In this document: positions 2,279-13,167 of the stretch, piece after piece
Layout: every line of letters begins with the position of its first letter
How positions within the stretch are numbered: position 1 is the stretch's first letter
Virus record (IMG/VR): IMGVR_UViG_3300018080_000632
Coordinates: 1-22,334 of that record
Origin: a virus
DNA length: 22,334 nucleotides
Reading direction: 5' to 3' (one strand)
The notes under the pieces: generated by a model
What the model was told of the DNA's origin: nothing
What the model saw: only the letters and a program-made list of their open reading frames with translations
Database searches by the model: none
Position numbers and translations under genes: made by a program

Positions 2279-3163
2279 ATGCTTTTTCAAGTAAATGGAC
2301 TAGAAATATCAAATCTTCAAAAATCTTCAGACAATAAAACTGTCCAAGTCGATATTATTGCAAATCATCTTACTGAAGATACAGATGGTGAAACAGTATT
2401 AAAAGAAGCATTCGACAAAGAAACTGTCAATGAGTTTATGGACATTGGTGTCATAGAGTTCTGGCATGAATCAAAACAACCTCTTCTTTCAAAAGCAGAA
2501 AAAATGGAAAATATTCTTGGAACTCCTGTTGCCTTTAGATGGGAAAATGGAAAACCAGTAGTTACTGCATCATTAACTAAATCACATCCAATTGTTCAAA
2601 AAATGTTACCACATCTTGAAGCTGGACAGCCGGTATATGCTGCATCAATAGGTGGATCTAAAGTTGTTTTAGAAGCTAAAGACTCAAATGGTGGTAAACA
2701 TAGAATAATTCCAAAAATAAGATGGGATCATTTAGCAATTGCACCTGCAAATTCTGTTATAAATCGTGAATCCGGAATGAATGTTAGACTTTTGCAGAAA
2801 GCTAATGATATCATGTGCGAATTTGATGATATGAACTCATTTAGAAATAATTCCAACATTATAGAGCAAGAAGAAGTATTGATGAAAGCATTAATGGCTC
2901 CTTCTAGTACAGGTGATCTACAAAATACATCTGGTGGTGTAGTTACAAAGCAAAGTTTAGAGAAAAAACCAGTAAATCTTACTTTTGGTGAAGATGAAAG
3001 TATGATGCTTCTAGATACCATAATAGGAATAAAAGAAAGAAGAATACCAACCGAAAAAAACAAATATATGAAACATTTTGAAGAAAAAAAGAAGAAAGAT
3101 TTTGGTGATAAATCTTATCGCCTTATCAATAAATTTTTTAAATCTAAAAAAGGAGCAATGTAA
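2279..3163 (+). CDS. Prohead maturation serine protease (XkdF-like)
   Basis: Predicted head maturation protease that processes capsid and scaffold during prohead maturation. The N-terminal half (about residues 1-165) has the layout of phage prohead proteases of the XkdF / S78-like group: a strand with EFWHES placing a candidate catalytic His at 63, a YAASIGG loop with candidate Ser 123, and RWDHLAIAP around 148-156. The position just before scaffold and capsid genes is typical of the family. Residues 203-228 carry a KALxxP...DL...GG...QSLE segment also found in the capsid protein. The tail beyond it (229-294) is very basic and may be an autoprocessed extension or a scaffold-contacting tail. 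GGAG at 2268-2271 supports the ATG. The fold is inferred from motifs; the fold class is more certain than the catalytic residues. Confidence 0.82.
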   Translation: MLFQVNGLEISNLQKSSDNKTVQVDIIANHLTEDTDGETVLKEAFDKETVNEFMDIGVIEFWHESKQPLLSKAEKMENILGTPVAFRWENGKPVVTASLTKSHPIVQKMLPHLEAGQPVYAASIGGSKVVLEAKDSNGGKHRIIPKIRWDHLAIAPANSVINRESGMNVRLLQKANDIMCEFDDMNSFRNNSNIIEQEEVLMKALMAPSSTGDLQNTSGGVVTKQSLEKKPVNLTFGEDESMMLLDTIIGIKERRIPTEKNKYMKHFEEKKKKDFGDKSYRLINKFFKSKKGAM

Positions 3164-3164
3164 C

Positions 3165-3941
3165 ATGATAACAAAAGAAGAATTGTTACAAAAAGGAATT
3201 TCTGAAGAAATTGCGGATGAAATAATTTCAAAAATTGATTCAGAAGAAGATGAAAGTTCCCTCCAGCTTCTACAGAAAGCACTAGGAGATCCAAAAGTAG
3301 AGGATCTCTCTAAGGCCGATGGAGGGGATGAAGAAGGGGATCAGGACGATGATGATGACAAAGATGATTATAACGAAAAGTATATGAAAAAACATATGAA
3401 ACGTTATATGAAAGCAAATAAATCATCATGCTCAAAAATGATGAAAGAGGTCGGAGAAAAAATGACTAAAGCCATTGATGATATCGATCTTGATTCTGAA
3501 GGTGCGGTTGTGGAAATGACTGATTTAGCACCTTTTCTTGAGTCTCAAAAAGAGTTTAATGAATCTCTTACAAAAGCACTAGGTCATTTAGCTGAAGAAA
3601 TTGTTACAATTAAAGGTGACAATGAAAAATCTTATGATTTACTGAAAAAAGCTGCTAGTGTTCAAGTAGAGCAGGCTGCTGCTATTGATGGGTTTCTTAA
3701 TACTCCTCAAGGTAGAAAATCTAAAGTTGTAGCTGATGGTGCTGATCTTTCTAAAGCTAGTAAAGAGAATGTAAATGATCAAGCTAAAATTTACACAACT
3801 CTTATGAAAGCTGTAAAAAATGGTGACACTGATGCTGGAGCAGTTATATCAGCATATGAAGTTGCTGGTAAAAATGTAAATCGTTTAAATGATAATCAAA
3901 GAGCATTCATAAGCGATCTTTTAAGTAAGGAGGCCAAATAA
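3165..3941 (+). CDS. Acidic scaffold-like head morphogenesis protein
   Basis: The 258-residue product has a helical N-terminus, a strongly acidic run (about residues 52-67, Asp/Glu with Gly), a Lys/Met-rich helix (72-87), then helical segments and a compact C-terminus. This composition and the position between protease and capsid genes are those of a phage scaffolding protein. The start at 3165 is chosen because AAGGAG (3150-3155) lies 9 bases upstream; the frame is open further upstream but would overlap the protease heavily. Residues 38-54 contain KALGDP-KVE-DL-SKAD-GG, a slightly shorter version of the motif shared by protease and capsid protein. It could alternatively be a capsid accessory protein retained in the head. 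Confidence 0.7.
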   Translation: MITKEELLQKGISEEIADEIISKIDSEEDESSLQLLQKALGDPKVEDLSKADGGDEEGDQDDDDDKDDYNEKYMKKHMKRYMKANKSSCSKMMKEVGEKMTKAIDDIDLDSEGAVVEMTDLAPFLESQKEFNESLTKALGHLAEEIVTIKGDNEKSYDLLKKAASVQVEQAAAIDGFLNTPQGRKSKVVADGADLSKASKENVNDQAKIYTTLMKAVKNGDTDAGAVISAYEVAGKNVNRLNDNQRAFISDLLSKEAK

Positions 3942-3943
3942 TT

Positions 3944-5452
3944 ATGAGATCTGAAGAGTTTTTAATGCTTGCCGATACTGAAATGGGTATTTCCAGTAAA
4001 GATGAAATGGAAGCACTTAGTAAAGCACTTTTGGCTCCAGGTAGTTCAGATGATCTGTACAATACACCTGGTGGTAGTCTTACAATGCAATCTCTTGAAG
4101 GGATGCTTGCAGACTTAACGTTAAATACTACTGATTTTACGTTATGGCAAGACATGAATAAAATAAAAGCATATTCTACAGTAGAAGAATATGATCAACA
4201 AATAGGACTTGGTATTTCTGATGGTGGATTCGTTGGACAAATAGAGAATCCAGAATTTAGAGATCCTGATTTCTTAAAGCAAATTGCTATTGTTAAATTC
4301 CTTTCTGAGGGATGGACTGTAGGTGATGTTGCTGCAGCAACAAATACTATTATAGATCAAAGAACTAGATCTCAAAGAGCTGCTATGAATAGATTGTTGA
4401 GAAATCTTAACAAGTCTCTTTATAATGGCGATAGTTCATTAATTCCTGAATCTATTGATGGTATTTCAGCTACTATAGCAGCAAAAGGTTCTACTCAACA
4501 AGTTAAAGATATGCGTGGTGGAAATGTAACCATGGATGTATTTAATTTAATGGGTCAACTTATTACAGAAGGAAACGGGCATGTTGAGAATTCTAAATTA
4601 TATGTATCTCCTGCTGGATTACAAAACATTTCTAAAATAATAGAAAGTGGTGCTGTATCTACTGGTGATAGAAAGATCGCTCAAATGGGTTCTAATGGAA
4701 TAACAATTGGTGGAAAAATTGATGAAGTTATGACTGCATATGGTCGTATGACTCCAAGAATGGATAAATTACTTGGATTATCATATGAATCTGCTGTGGT
4801 TCCTCAATACTATGATAACGCAAGTCAAACATGGATTGAAGGTACAACTTCAGACAAAGCACCATCTATGCCATCTATTGAATTAACTAATGCTCCTAGT
4901 GTTACTAATTCATTATTTAGTGCCGGTACAGTTAGACCTTCTGGAGTAAAATATAATTATAGAGTCGTTGCTGGTAATAAATATGGAAGATCAAAAGCTT
5001 CTGTTGCAGTTGAATCTACTTCAGTAGTTGCAGCAGGTGGTGGTATTTCTATAGCAATTACACCTGCATCTGGTGATTCAGGTTCAAAACTTCCTACTTA
5101 TTTTGAAATTTATTCTGAAAAAGTTGGTGGAAGTGGTGAATATAGATTAATGACAAAAGTTGCAGCTAATACAAGTCCATTGACTGTTGTTACTTATGTC
5201 GATAAAAATGATTATATTCCTGGTACAGCAAGAATGTTTATAATTGATCAAACTAGTGTTGGTGAAAGTAGAGTTATGGCTTTTAGTCAATTACTTCCTA
5301 TTCATAATACTGATTTAGCTAAAGTTGGTCGTTATTCTCAAGGACTTATTAACCTTTATGGTGTTCCTAAGTATTACAAACCTAATATTCTTGTAGAAAT
5401 TCGGAATATTAACGTTGATCAAGCTAATGTAAATAAATTTAATCTTGTTTAA
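3944..5452 (+). CDS. Major capsid protein with inserted Ig/Fn3-like domain
   Basis: The 502-residue product is the best candidate for the HK97-fold capsid subunit: it follows protease and scaffold, is preceded by a near-ideal AAGGAGG (3927-3933, 10 bases from the ATG), and has an N-terminal arm followed by a typical mixed region (about 60-300). Residues 1-52 are helical and end in the KALxxP...QSLE segment (27-52) shared with the protease, so they may form a removable delta-like domain. Residues about 305-430 are Ser/Thr/Val/Gly-rich beta sequence with YNYRVVAGNKYGRS, an Fn3/Ig-like signature, probably a surface-exposed inserted domain. Residues 430-502 return to capsid-like sequence, so the Ig-like part is internal. 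The fold assignment is inference from order and sequence character. Confidence 0.85.
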   Translation: MRSEEFLMLADTEMGISSKDEMEALSKALLAPGSSDDLYNTPGGSLTMQSLEGMLADLTLNTTDFTLWQDMNKIKAYSTVEEYDQQIGLGISDGGFVGQIENPEFRDPDFLKQIAIVKFLSEGWTVGDVAAATNTIIDQRTRSQRAAMNRLLRNLNKSLYNGDSSLIPESIDGISATIAAKGSTQQVKDMRGGNVTMDVFNLMGQLITEGNGHVENSKLYVSPAGLQNISKIIESGAVSTGDRKIAQMGSNGITIGGKIDEVMTAYGRMTPRMDKLLGLSYESAVVPQYYDNASQTWIEGTTSDKAPSMPSIELTNAPSVTNSLFSAGTVRPSGVKYNYRVVAGNKYGRSKASVAVESTSVVAAGGGISIAITPASGDSGSKLPTYFEIYSEKVGGSGEYRLMTKVAANTSPLTVVTYVDKNDYIPGTARMFIIDQTSVGESRVMAFSQLLPIHNTDLAKVGRYSQGLINLYGVPKYYKPNILVEIRNINVDQANVNKFNLV

Positions 5453-6046: not shown

Positions 6047-6456
6047 CTATACATCAAAGTGCATTTGATGCATCTCAAGGTAGTCCAAATATTGAAGTTC
6101 TACAATATTTGCAAGATAATTGGGGTAAAGATGAAATAAGTGCTGCTTTACGAGTAGCTAAAGTTTCTATTACCGCATCAGGTACAGCAGGAGTGGCAGC
6201 AGTTATTCCAGTTGGAGCTGAAATATTAGATGTTCATTGTATCTGTAAGGCTACTGTTGGCAGTGGATCGGCTCAAGTTAGAGTTGGTGGAGCTGGAGCA
6301 GTGATTTCTGATGCATTAACAATGGCAACTAATGATGCATTAACTAGAGCTTCTAGTATAGATACTACATATAACGTTGTTGGATCAGATGGTATTGAAG
6401 TTGTTACCAATTCTGATAATGATCGTGGTGATGTTTTTATTACTTATAAAAAGTAA
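6043..6456 (+). CDS. Beta-sandwich-like capsid accessory or head-fibre protein
   Basis: The 137-residue product has a short helical N-terminus (about 1-38), then an Ala/Gly/Val/Thr-rich beta domain (39-137) with strands such as GVAAVIPVGAEILDVHC and a C-terminal GDVFITYKK strand. This is the look of a small virion surface or decoration domain. AAAGGAG at 6029-6035 lies 7 bases before the ATG, stronger than the signals of the two genes before it, which fits a high-copy structural protein. It is the last gene before the terminator at 6471. No specific family is recognised. Confidence 0.65.
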   Translation: MTIHQSAFDASQGSPNIEVLQYLQDNWGKDEISAALRVAKVSITASGTAGVAAVIPVGAEILDVHCICKATVGSGSAQVRVGGAGAVISDALTMATNDALTRASSIDTTYNVVGSDGIEVVTNSDNDRGDVFITYKK

Positions 6457-6470
6457 TTAAAAAGAATATA

Positions 6471-6512
6471 AAATCTACATATCCTTAAAATAGAGATATG
6501 TAGATTTTTTTT
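6471..6512 (+). terminator. Rho-independent terminator of the head operon
   Basis: A perfect 13-base inverted repeat (6471-6483 with 6495-6507, core ATCTACATATC / GATATGTAGAT) with an 11-base loop is followed by a run of Ts to 6512. It lies 14 bases after the stop of the last head-operon gene. Confidence 0.9.
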
Positions 6513-6533
6513 AAAAATAGAGAATGAATTAAA

Positions 6534-7469
6534 ATGAGCGAATGTACAGAAAATAGATCAGGATTTGCATTTAATAATCCAGATATATCAAGTGATTATC
6601 ACGCTCCAAGTTGGGGTCTTTTGGTTACTGCTGATGAATTACGATATGATGAAATGTTTGGAAATGCATTAATAGCTGAAGCAGATAGTCAATCTATTAC
6701 AGATGATCAGTTATTGGATTATGCTAGACTAGCAATTAGACACATGGAAGTAGAATTAAATATTGATATTTTACCTCGAAGAATAAGATATGATGATCCA
6801 ATCGGTGAAGATGGAAATGAAGAACCAAGAACTGATTTTGATGATTCAGATTTTACATCAAGAATGACTGCAAAACAATTAGAAGCATTATATTTAAGAG
6901 AACCTGGTTATTCATATAAAGTAATAGCTGCACGAAAAGAGTCAAGAGTAAAAATGAGACGTAGACCAGTAAGAGATCTATTAACAGCAAAATTTGTTGA
7001 CCCTTATTATGGTAATACAGTAATAGATCTAATGCCATATAGAATTGTAAAAAAGGGATTCACTGGTGTTTGTCATTTTAGACCAAGACAATTAACGACT
7101 AGAACTAATTATTATGCTTATATATGGACAAATTATTTATTTAGACCTTACAATAATGATATACAAAGCTTGTATTTATTAGATTATGAAACAGGATATG
7201 AGAACTGTCAAGATGTCCCAGATGAATTCAGGAATATTATTAAAAAACTTGCTGCAGTTACTCTTATGAATATATATGGTGATGGTAAATTAGCTGCTAT
7301 TGCATCAAGATCAGTAAATTTGAATTCAGTTAGTGAATCAATCAATACAACACTAAGTGCTACAAGTGCTACATTCGGTGCAAGAATAATGCAATATCAA
7401 AAAGAAATAAAAGCATGGTTTACTCAAAATAGATCAAAATACAGTCGAACATCAATAGGTCGATTATAA
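6534..7469 (+). CDS. Putative head-tail connector (adaptor) protein
   Basis: The 311-residue product lies first in the neck block after the capsid operon. The C-terminal third contains a helix-rich segment with the pattern VPDEFRNIIKKLAAVTLMNIYGDG, then SVSESINTTLSATSATFGARI and a final helix with KEIKAWF. This pattern (Ser-rich loop, 'sesi', 'atsatfGaRI') I associate with phage adaptor or head-completion proteins that close the portal. The middle has basic stretches (RKESRVKMRRRPVRD) that could contact DNA or portal. The ATG at 6534 has only a weak GAGAA upstream, and no promoter is seen between the terminator and this gene, so expression probably relies on read-through. It could be another neck component. 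Confidence 0.65.
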   Translation: MSECTENRSGFAFNNPDISSDYHAPSWGLLVTADELRYDEMFGNALIAEADSQSITDDQLLDYARLAIRHMEVELNIDILPRRIRYDDPIGEDGNEEPRTDFDDSDFTSRMTAKQLEALYLREPGYSYKVIAARKESRVKMRRRPVRDLLTAKFVDPYYGNTVIDLMPYRIVKKGFTGVCHFRPRQLTTRTNYYAYIWTNYLFRPYNNDIQSLYLLDYETGYENCQDVPDEFRNIIKKLAAVTLMNIYGDGKLAAIASRSVNLNSVSESINTTLSATSATFGARIMQYQKEIKAWFTQNRSKYSRTSIGRL

Positions 7470-12279: not shown

Positions 12280-12333
12280 ATAAGGCTTAAATGTAATATG
12301 TTGTTATTCATATTTAAGCCTTATAATTTTTTT
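12280..12333 (+). terminator. Rho-independent terminator after tail tube
   Basis: A perfect 13-base inverted repeat (12280-12292 with 12312-12324, core AAGGCTTAAAT / ATTTAAGCCTT) with a 19-base loop is followed by seven Ts (12327-12333). It works for the + strand; on the minus strand no T-run follows, so endonuclease transcripts may not stop here. The last codons and stop of the minus-strand endonuclease lie in the right arm and loop. Confidence 0.85.
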
Positions 12334-13167
12334 ATAAAAATTTTTCCAATATTCTCTATTTGCATTTGTTTTTGTGTGGCATGATTTACATAGAGTTATA
12401 AGATTTTTTTCACAACAATTTTCTTTAATGTAATCTATATGATGAACATCTCCATTTTTTATTTTCTTATTACATTCAGGATTTTGACATATGTTGCCAT
12501 CTCTATTTCTAACTTTCAACTTTAATGATTTATCAAATTCAATTGGATAGTGCTCAAAAGACACTCCTCCTCTCCATGCTGGATGATTTTCTTTATTTTT
12601 AAATCTTTCTTTTGCTTTTTTAGATAATAAATTCCTTGTTTTTCTTGAATGTTTTTTACCATAAAAATGATTACCTTCTCCAGAAAAAGCTTTTGATAGT
12701 TTAATTTTCATTTCTTCTGATAAATATATTTTTTTATTTCTTCTTTCTTTATTCCATGCTTCAGACATCTTTTTTTTTGTTTTTTCTGATAATTTTTTTC
12801 CATTGTTTGGATGATTTTTACCACTCGTAGATTTACTCATTTTTTTCTTTGATTCTTCTGTATGCTTACGCCCATACATCGGATGATTCTCACCTTTGTA
12901 TTTTTTCATAATTTTTGAATGTTTTTTCTTATTCTCATCTAATTGCATATAGTGTGTTGTATCTTTGTATTTGTTTTTTAATTTTTTTGATATTTTCTTT
13001 CTAACTTCTGGTCTTTTGGATGGATTATTCTCTCCACATAATTTATTTTTATGTTCTTCTGAATGTTTATAATGGTATATTATATAATCATTCCAACTCC
13101 CATCACGTCTTTTTTTTACCGGTTGCCCACAACCACATTTACATAATTTAACATTTTTCTTATTCAT
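12304..13167 (-). CDS. HNH homing endonuclease with NUMOD3 repeats
   Basis: Free-standing HNH homing endonuclease, predicted to cut a sister phage allele and be copied with its flanks. The 287-residue product has an N-terminal CKCGCG cluster (C9-C13), several NUMOD3-type repeats of the form GENHPMYGRKHTEESKKKM (about 45-60, 92-111, 116-135, 163-182) that bind DNA, and a C-terminal HNH domain (about 215-275): C227-N-P-E-C232, H242-H243-I-D-Y, N255 and C260-K-S-C263. The NUMOD3/HNH combination is known in phage homing endonucleases. It is the only minus-strand gene. No ribosome binding site precedes ATG 13167, but a consensus promoter does. Encoded between two + transcription units. Confidence 0.9.
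   Translation of the reverse strand: MNKKNVKLCKCGCGQPVKKRRDGSWNDYIIYHYKHSEEHKNKLCGENNPSKRPEVRKKISKKLKNKYKDTTHYMQLDENKKKHSKIMKKYKGENHPMYGRKHTEESKKKMSKSTSGKNHPNNGKKLSEKTKKKMSEAWNKERRNKKIYLSEEMKIKLSKAFSGEGNHFYGKKHSRKTRNLLSKKAKERFKNKENHPAWRGGVSFEHYPIEFDKSLKLKVRNRDGNICQNPECNKKIKNGDVHHIDYIKENCCEKNLITLCKSCHTKTNANREYWKNFYKKIIRLKYE

Follow-up and report, generated by a model that had tools for sequence, protein, structure and literature searches.

Proteases of the T4 gp21 and phiKZ types cut after a glutamate at a short motif, and it is to these enzymes that the x-x-E and S-x-E rules belong. In the herpesvirus UL26/UL26.5 system, the tail of the protease is also found in an abundant assembly partner and is removed by self-cleavage. 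SPN3US gp245 is likewise self-cleaving (PMC10052503), and the HK97 capsid protein, gp5, is cut at K103/S104 (PMC10275583). In phages that have a separate scaffold, the N-terminal arm (N-arm) of the capsid protein forms a helix contacted by the scaffold, while in mature heads the N-arm joins neighbouring subunits (PMC12749128). Members of the Herelleviridae, such as SPO1, A511 and phage K, encode a portal, a prohead protease, a scaffold and a capsid protein of the gp6.1/Cps type.

The stretch of DNA analyzed here (the window, a virus record of 22,334 bases) carries the head and tail operon of a contractile-tail phage. Its gene order and capsid family are common with those of SPO1, A511 and phage K, as are a predicted K/[AS] cleavage site with which the capsid arm begins and a copy of that arm in the tail of the protease. 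The proteins of these phages are, however, only ∼25% identical to those of the window, the arm sequence of the window (KALLAPGSSDDLYNTPGG) is peculiar to its clade, and the window protease falls below the Peptidase_S78 cut-off. HK97 resembles the window lineage in the lysine that precedes serine at the capsid cut and in a protease, gp4, with a helical tail after the core; unlike the window, its scaffold is the delta domain of the capsid protein itself. No arm copy was detected in the HK97 and D3 proteases, gp4 against the gp5 arm scoring 29 (null 24 ± 3.8). The proteases of T4 (gp21) and of the phiKZ/SPN3US type have a core fold like that of the window protease, but in the window lineage the site is apparently K/[AS], and what is conserved is a long arm that follows the cut. 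The herpesvirus protease and scaffold follow the same logic with a similar core fold; there, the protease has its tail in common with the scaffold, and this tail binds the capsid protein, whereas in the window the shared tail is the arm of the capsid protein, which is encoded by a separate gene.

The head operon and the layout of its protease

The genes of the operon are arranged in the order: a protein without family assignment (9-2018), a small protein, the protease, the scaffold and the capsid (Table 1). The capsid protein falls in the SPO1/A511 family by PHROG 752 (SPO1-type major capsid protein; profile match over residues 12-494), by tblastn and by PDB entry 9vel.

Table 1. Head-operon features, by position in the window
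Feature	Position	Strand	Basis
Prohead protease, 294 aa	2279..3163	+	Predicted core fold; invariant H63/S123; PHROG 3698
Protease catalytic core, residues 9-156	2303..2746	+	Conservation and AlphaFold model
Likely catalytic His63 and Ser123	2465-2467 and 2645-2647	+	Conservation
Capsid N-arm copy in protease tail, residues 203-246	2885..3016	+	tblastn, local alignment, residue counts
Protease C-terminal helical domain, residues 238-293	2990..3157	+	pLDDT ∼90 over most of domain
Scaffold, 258 aa, many K[AS] sites	3165..3941	+	K[AS] count; gene order as in SPO1
KALGDPKVEDLSKADGG in scaffold: two ordinary K/A sites, no arm copy	3276..3326	+	
Major capsid protein, 502 aa	3944..5452	+	PHROG 752 (E 4e-69); matches SPO1 Gp6.1, PDB 9vel
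Likely capsid propeptide, residues 1-27	3944..4024	+	Alignment to A511 K23/S24; 9row
Capsid N-arm, residues 27-72, counterpart of protease copy	4022..4159	+	Alignment, residue counts

The first protein of the operon, rich in lysine and glutamate and 669 aa in length, occupies the place expected of a portal and has no PHROG or Pfam match. It has common ends (MPxGTVxxxxxKxAxGKWV and ILAEALSGRDV) with a relative encoded upstream of the protease in contig L003. In the same contig, which is from a near relative, another head-operon protein (6246-6902) opens with the same motif, MPVGTVSKGRKKIAEGKWI, and contains an ADP-ribosyltransferase domain of the ART-PolyVal type (E 4e-22); its counterpart is absent from that place in the window. 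A likely homing endonuclease of 287 aa, bearing three NUMOD3 motifs (E 2.5e-29), is encoded on the minus strand (12304-13167); its gene separates the one after the tail sheath gene from the next tail gene.

Pfam PF04586 (Peptidase_S78), which matched 13 of 30 aligned relatives, gave no match to the window protease even at E 0.1. Residues H63 and S123 are unchanged in an alignment of 35 relatives and are likely, by this conservation, to form the catalytic pair. In an AlphaFold model of the window protease built from 35 sequences, a confident core and a confident helical C-terminal domain are connected by a low-confidence linker that contains the arm copy and is not packed against the core. Structure comparison of the modelled core gave T4 gp21 (Z 12.7, rmsd 3.2 over 144 residues) and, at Z 6-7, the herpes proteases. 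The protease of an SPO1-like relative yielded a similar model. Seating of the copy in the active site of its own protease was set aside, as both models show the low-confidence linker, although this argues only weakly against it. In a profile comparison, the C-terminal domain of the protease was not recognizable as a copy of the scaffold C-terminus (probability 0.8%).

The capsid N-arm is duplicated in the protease tail

When the whole record was searched by tblastn with the capsid protein, the sole second match was the protease segment (capsid residues 20-64, 47% identity, E 4e-7), and no further arm copies were found in the window. The local alignment score of protease and capsid was 87, versus 24.2 ± 3.7 for shuffled proteases (p ∼2e-10). 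An earlier, sequence-only reading of this DNA had counted 17 of 26 identical residues and 56 of 78 identical bases between protease residues 203-228 (2885-2962) and capsid residues 27-52 (4022-4099), and both counts are exact. The similarity begins at a K/A site and continues beyond the QSLE motif, with 20 of 44 residues identical over protease residues 203-246.

The copy was then sought in 65 operons related by capsid, whose capsids are <90% identical to each other; they were taken from annotated phages (including SPO1, A511, other Herelleviridae, and Thermus and Pseudomonas phages) and from IMG/VR contigs. In 43 of the 65, the protease matched the N-arm of its own capsid at p < 1e-3. By these alignments, the copy is common to the window virus and most of its relatives, including SPO1 (protease KSLEAGYEVDPEKMEGGDVFRKESLDKDLKNLSY, capsid KALEAGHTVNPLDLEGGGAFRVESLERSLHNLSF) and a Staphylococcus Kayvirus. 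Further examples are Thermus phage Cumys (protease TAGDPHALDPKSGLTGVPAIRRESLE, capsid TAGDPHALDFKAGLSGVPAIRLESLE) and A511 (protease KSWTTGHGTTPDTQVNAGALRRESL, capsid KSFTTGYGITPDTQTDAGALRREFL). In several phages the similarity is >35 residues long. As an independent check, only one PDB sequence resembles the SPO1 protease, namely that of the SPO1 capsid (protease 161-217, capsid 15-71). A significant copy was absent in about one-third of the 65 operons, including some protease-scaffold fusions; by local alignment score, none was significant in Leptospira LE1, Bacteroides DAC19 or Chryseobacterium MA9V-3.

Fusion of protease and scaffold (∼450-780 aa), with a shortened arm copy at the junction, was observed in many IMG/VR relatives (e.g., L015, L016, L030, L076 and L098) and in Chryseobacterium phage MA9V-3. 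Many of the fusions have retained a K/[AS] site together with the distal half of the arm (ESVDxxLK...) but not its middle. In contigs without a protease (L020, L022, L026, L027, L045 and others), the protease profile matched the capsid gene itself (E ∼1e-5); the arm copy can mislead annotation, and it explains why protease searches in this lineage can match capsid genes. For Bacillus phage SBSphiJ4, the annotated protease (L093, 1812-2354) has only 180 aa and no counterpart to the front part seen in Goe7 and other relatives; a misassigned start or a frameshift in this record is the probable cause.

Had the copy originated once and then drifted freely, the tail of each protease should resemble its own capsid no more than it resembles others. 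The opposite was observed. In all 577 comparisons among loci with <40% capsid identity, own pairs outscored crossed pairs, and they still did so in 577 of 577 when the first 8 residues of the arm were left out. With the copy masked in the protease tail, own versus crossed pairs stood at 310 to 248, and with the next capsid segment at 270 to 267; since both controls are nearly even, composition is not the cause of the tracking. Among loci unselected by score, the own pair won in 865 of 873 cases (<30% capsid identity), and between closely related phages the difference disappeared, as expected. Such pairs are not independent of phylogeny. For 16 distant representatives, the diagonal sum was 1066, versus 580 ± 59 for permuted pairings, the maximum of 200,000 permutations being 897. 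The own-specific identity peaks at arm positions 3-15 (60% versus 22%) and is smaller in the distal part of the arm (43% versus 28%).

Within the operon, the two segments are separated by 1.1 kb, as would suit a recent local duplication or gene conversion devoid of function. Synonymous codons speak against such an event: in the window, 11 of 20 identical residues share a codon (10.0 ± 2.1 expected by chance), in the family 323 of 726 do (324.7 ± 12.8 expected), and no single locus exceeds z 1.9. Moreover, the copy is found in very distant phages. Recent copying was accordingly ruled out on the chance-level codons and retains only a negligible probability, and the duplication that had been proposed from the window alone is real but old. 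Since the synonymous codons are at chance, the match appears to be held by selection on both proteins; on the sequence evidence, the copy is ancient and is maintained at the protein level.

No description of the arm copy was found in the open literature, and we know of no report of it in SPO1, A511 or phage K. The literature most likely to mention it (the work on A511 processing, the SPO1 genome and HK97 gp4 encapsidation) lay outside the coverage, so its novelty is provisional.

Probable cleavage at lysine in capsid, protease and scaffold

According to its database record, A511 has a mature capsid peptide that starts at S24, after K23 and 23 codons into the gene. The capsid chain of phage 812, as deposited (9row, 439 aa), aligns with A511 beginning at residue 24 and therefore has the same start. 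A511 K23 aligns with K27 of the window capsid. Of the 65 capsids, 64 have lysine at this position, with which the motif opens, and 61 have K[AS]. By comparison with the A511 and 812 capsids, which are ∼25% identical to that of the window, the latter is likely to be cut between K27 and A28, with removal of the propeptide. Self-processing of the protease tail, as had been suggested, is plausible, and its likely site by the same alignment is between K203 and A204 (2887/2888). According to the modelled layout, this cut would part the core from the arm copy and the helical domain. The proposed tie between the duplicated segment and proteolytic maturation is supported.

The place of the cut appears to differ from that first suggested. 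The sequence-only reading, invoking the x-x-E and S-x-E rules, had both proteins cut after QSLE and the motif removed as a tag. QSLE is indeed present in both window proteins, but SLE occurs in only 46 of 65 capsids and is missing in 19, A511 among them. In the relatives examined (A511 and 812), the mature capsid starts upstream of the SLE position, directly after the lysine at the start of the motif. Cleavage after QSLE is disfavoured, and the tag version as a whole is very improbable; the protease of this lineage fits a K/[AS] cutter. Because the cut lies at the start of the motif, the segment would not be removed from the capsid but would stay on it and become the mature N-arm.

The motif had also been assigned to the scaffold, as a third protein keeping its first part. 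The pairing of protease and capsid holds, but the scaffold does not belong with them: its letters KALGDPKVEDLSKADGG are present but are unlike the arm beyond KAL. The best local alignment of scaffold and capsid arm falls in another stretch, at chance level, and six sister scaffolds keep only the K-A-[IL] site and the [LF]-x-K-A site that follows, whereas P and DL are not conserved in them. The scaffold was consequently rejected as a carrier of the motif. Scaffolds are instead full of K/[AS] sites that are arm-like only around the cut. The window scaffold, when read as the longer open frame that starts at 3078, has 11 K[AS] pairs versus 6.6 expected, and 34 scaffolds of the lineage have 368 versus 187 expected, twice the expectation, while the capsids of the lineage show no excess (141 versus 133 expected). 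At the third place before the cut, the scaffold sites favour a capsid-like residue; beyond the residues beside the cut they have nothing in common with the arm. As these sites do without it, the arm appears dispensable for cleavage.

A proposed role of the copy in the prohead

For the same reason, cleavage alone is inadequate to account for the 20-40 further residues that are conserved. Together with the scaffold-contacted N-arm helices of other phages, this points to docking: at a probability of roughly one in two, the copy is a mimic of the N-arm by which the protease docks at the prohead site that a capsid arm would bind, and it is then shed by self-cleavage. The main step would take place before the self-cut, when the copy would stand in for the capsid arm and occupy its place on the scaffold or inner shell, such that the protease is incorporated at the right position in the prohead. 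The protease would then cut itself at K203/A204, a site of the same type as that of the capsid, and the active core thus freed would remove the capsid propeptides and degrade the scaffold at its many K/[AS] sites. Counting against docking, HK97 does without a copy, and roughly one-third of the operons show no significant one. The N-arms are, moreover, disordered in HK97 and D3 proheads, so that the prohead may not offer a preformed site for the arm.

The strongest rival to docking is that the copy serves solely as a substrate for self-cleavage, an exosite reading the sequence from P1 to about P20', with the capsid arm and the protease tail both keeping the residues that fit it. The similarity does start at the cut site, and the own-specific identity is strongest just behind it. 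Tracking of the own capsid is predicted by docking and would also be expected of an exosite that diverges along with its two substrates. The K/[AS] sites of the scaffold, presumably cut by the same enzyme, nevertheless lack the arm; the similarity in several phages extends beyond 35 residues, and the fusion operons retain the distal half of the arm rather than its middle. We consider this explanation unlikely, though worth serious attention.

Considerably less probable is a structural role after cleavage, in which the C-terminal fragment would remain within the head and occupy arm positions at particular sites, the portal vertex being one example. The cut would yield a fragment that starts exactly like the mature capsid, with a helical domain behind it, and protease peptides were detected in particles of Listeria phage CKA15; the authors of that study, however, regard the protease as residual (PMC12282133).

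The docking reading bears on the placement of the protease in proheads, a step of which little is understood except in a few model systems. For this lineage, the cleavage site to expect is corrected from S-x-E to K/[AS], and a copy that stays matched to its own capsid across very distant phages pinpoints the stretch to be deleted or labelled. Tests could begin immediately, because the relatives include tractable laboratory phages (SPO1) as well as the Staphylococcus Kayviruses. In its broadest form, which we hold more tentatively than docking itself, the maturation enzyme would mimic the capsid throughout this lineage: a co-evolving imitation of the capsid arm would position the protease via the binding site of the arm and would then be discarded by self-cleavage.
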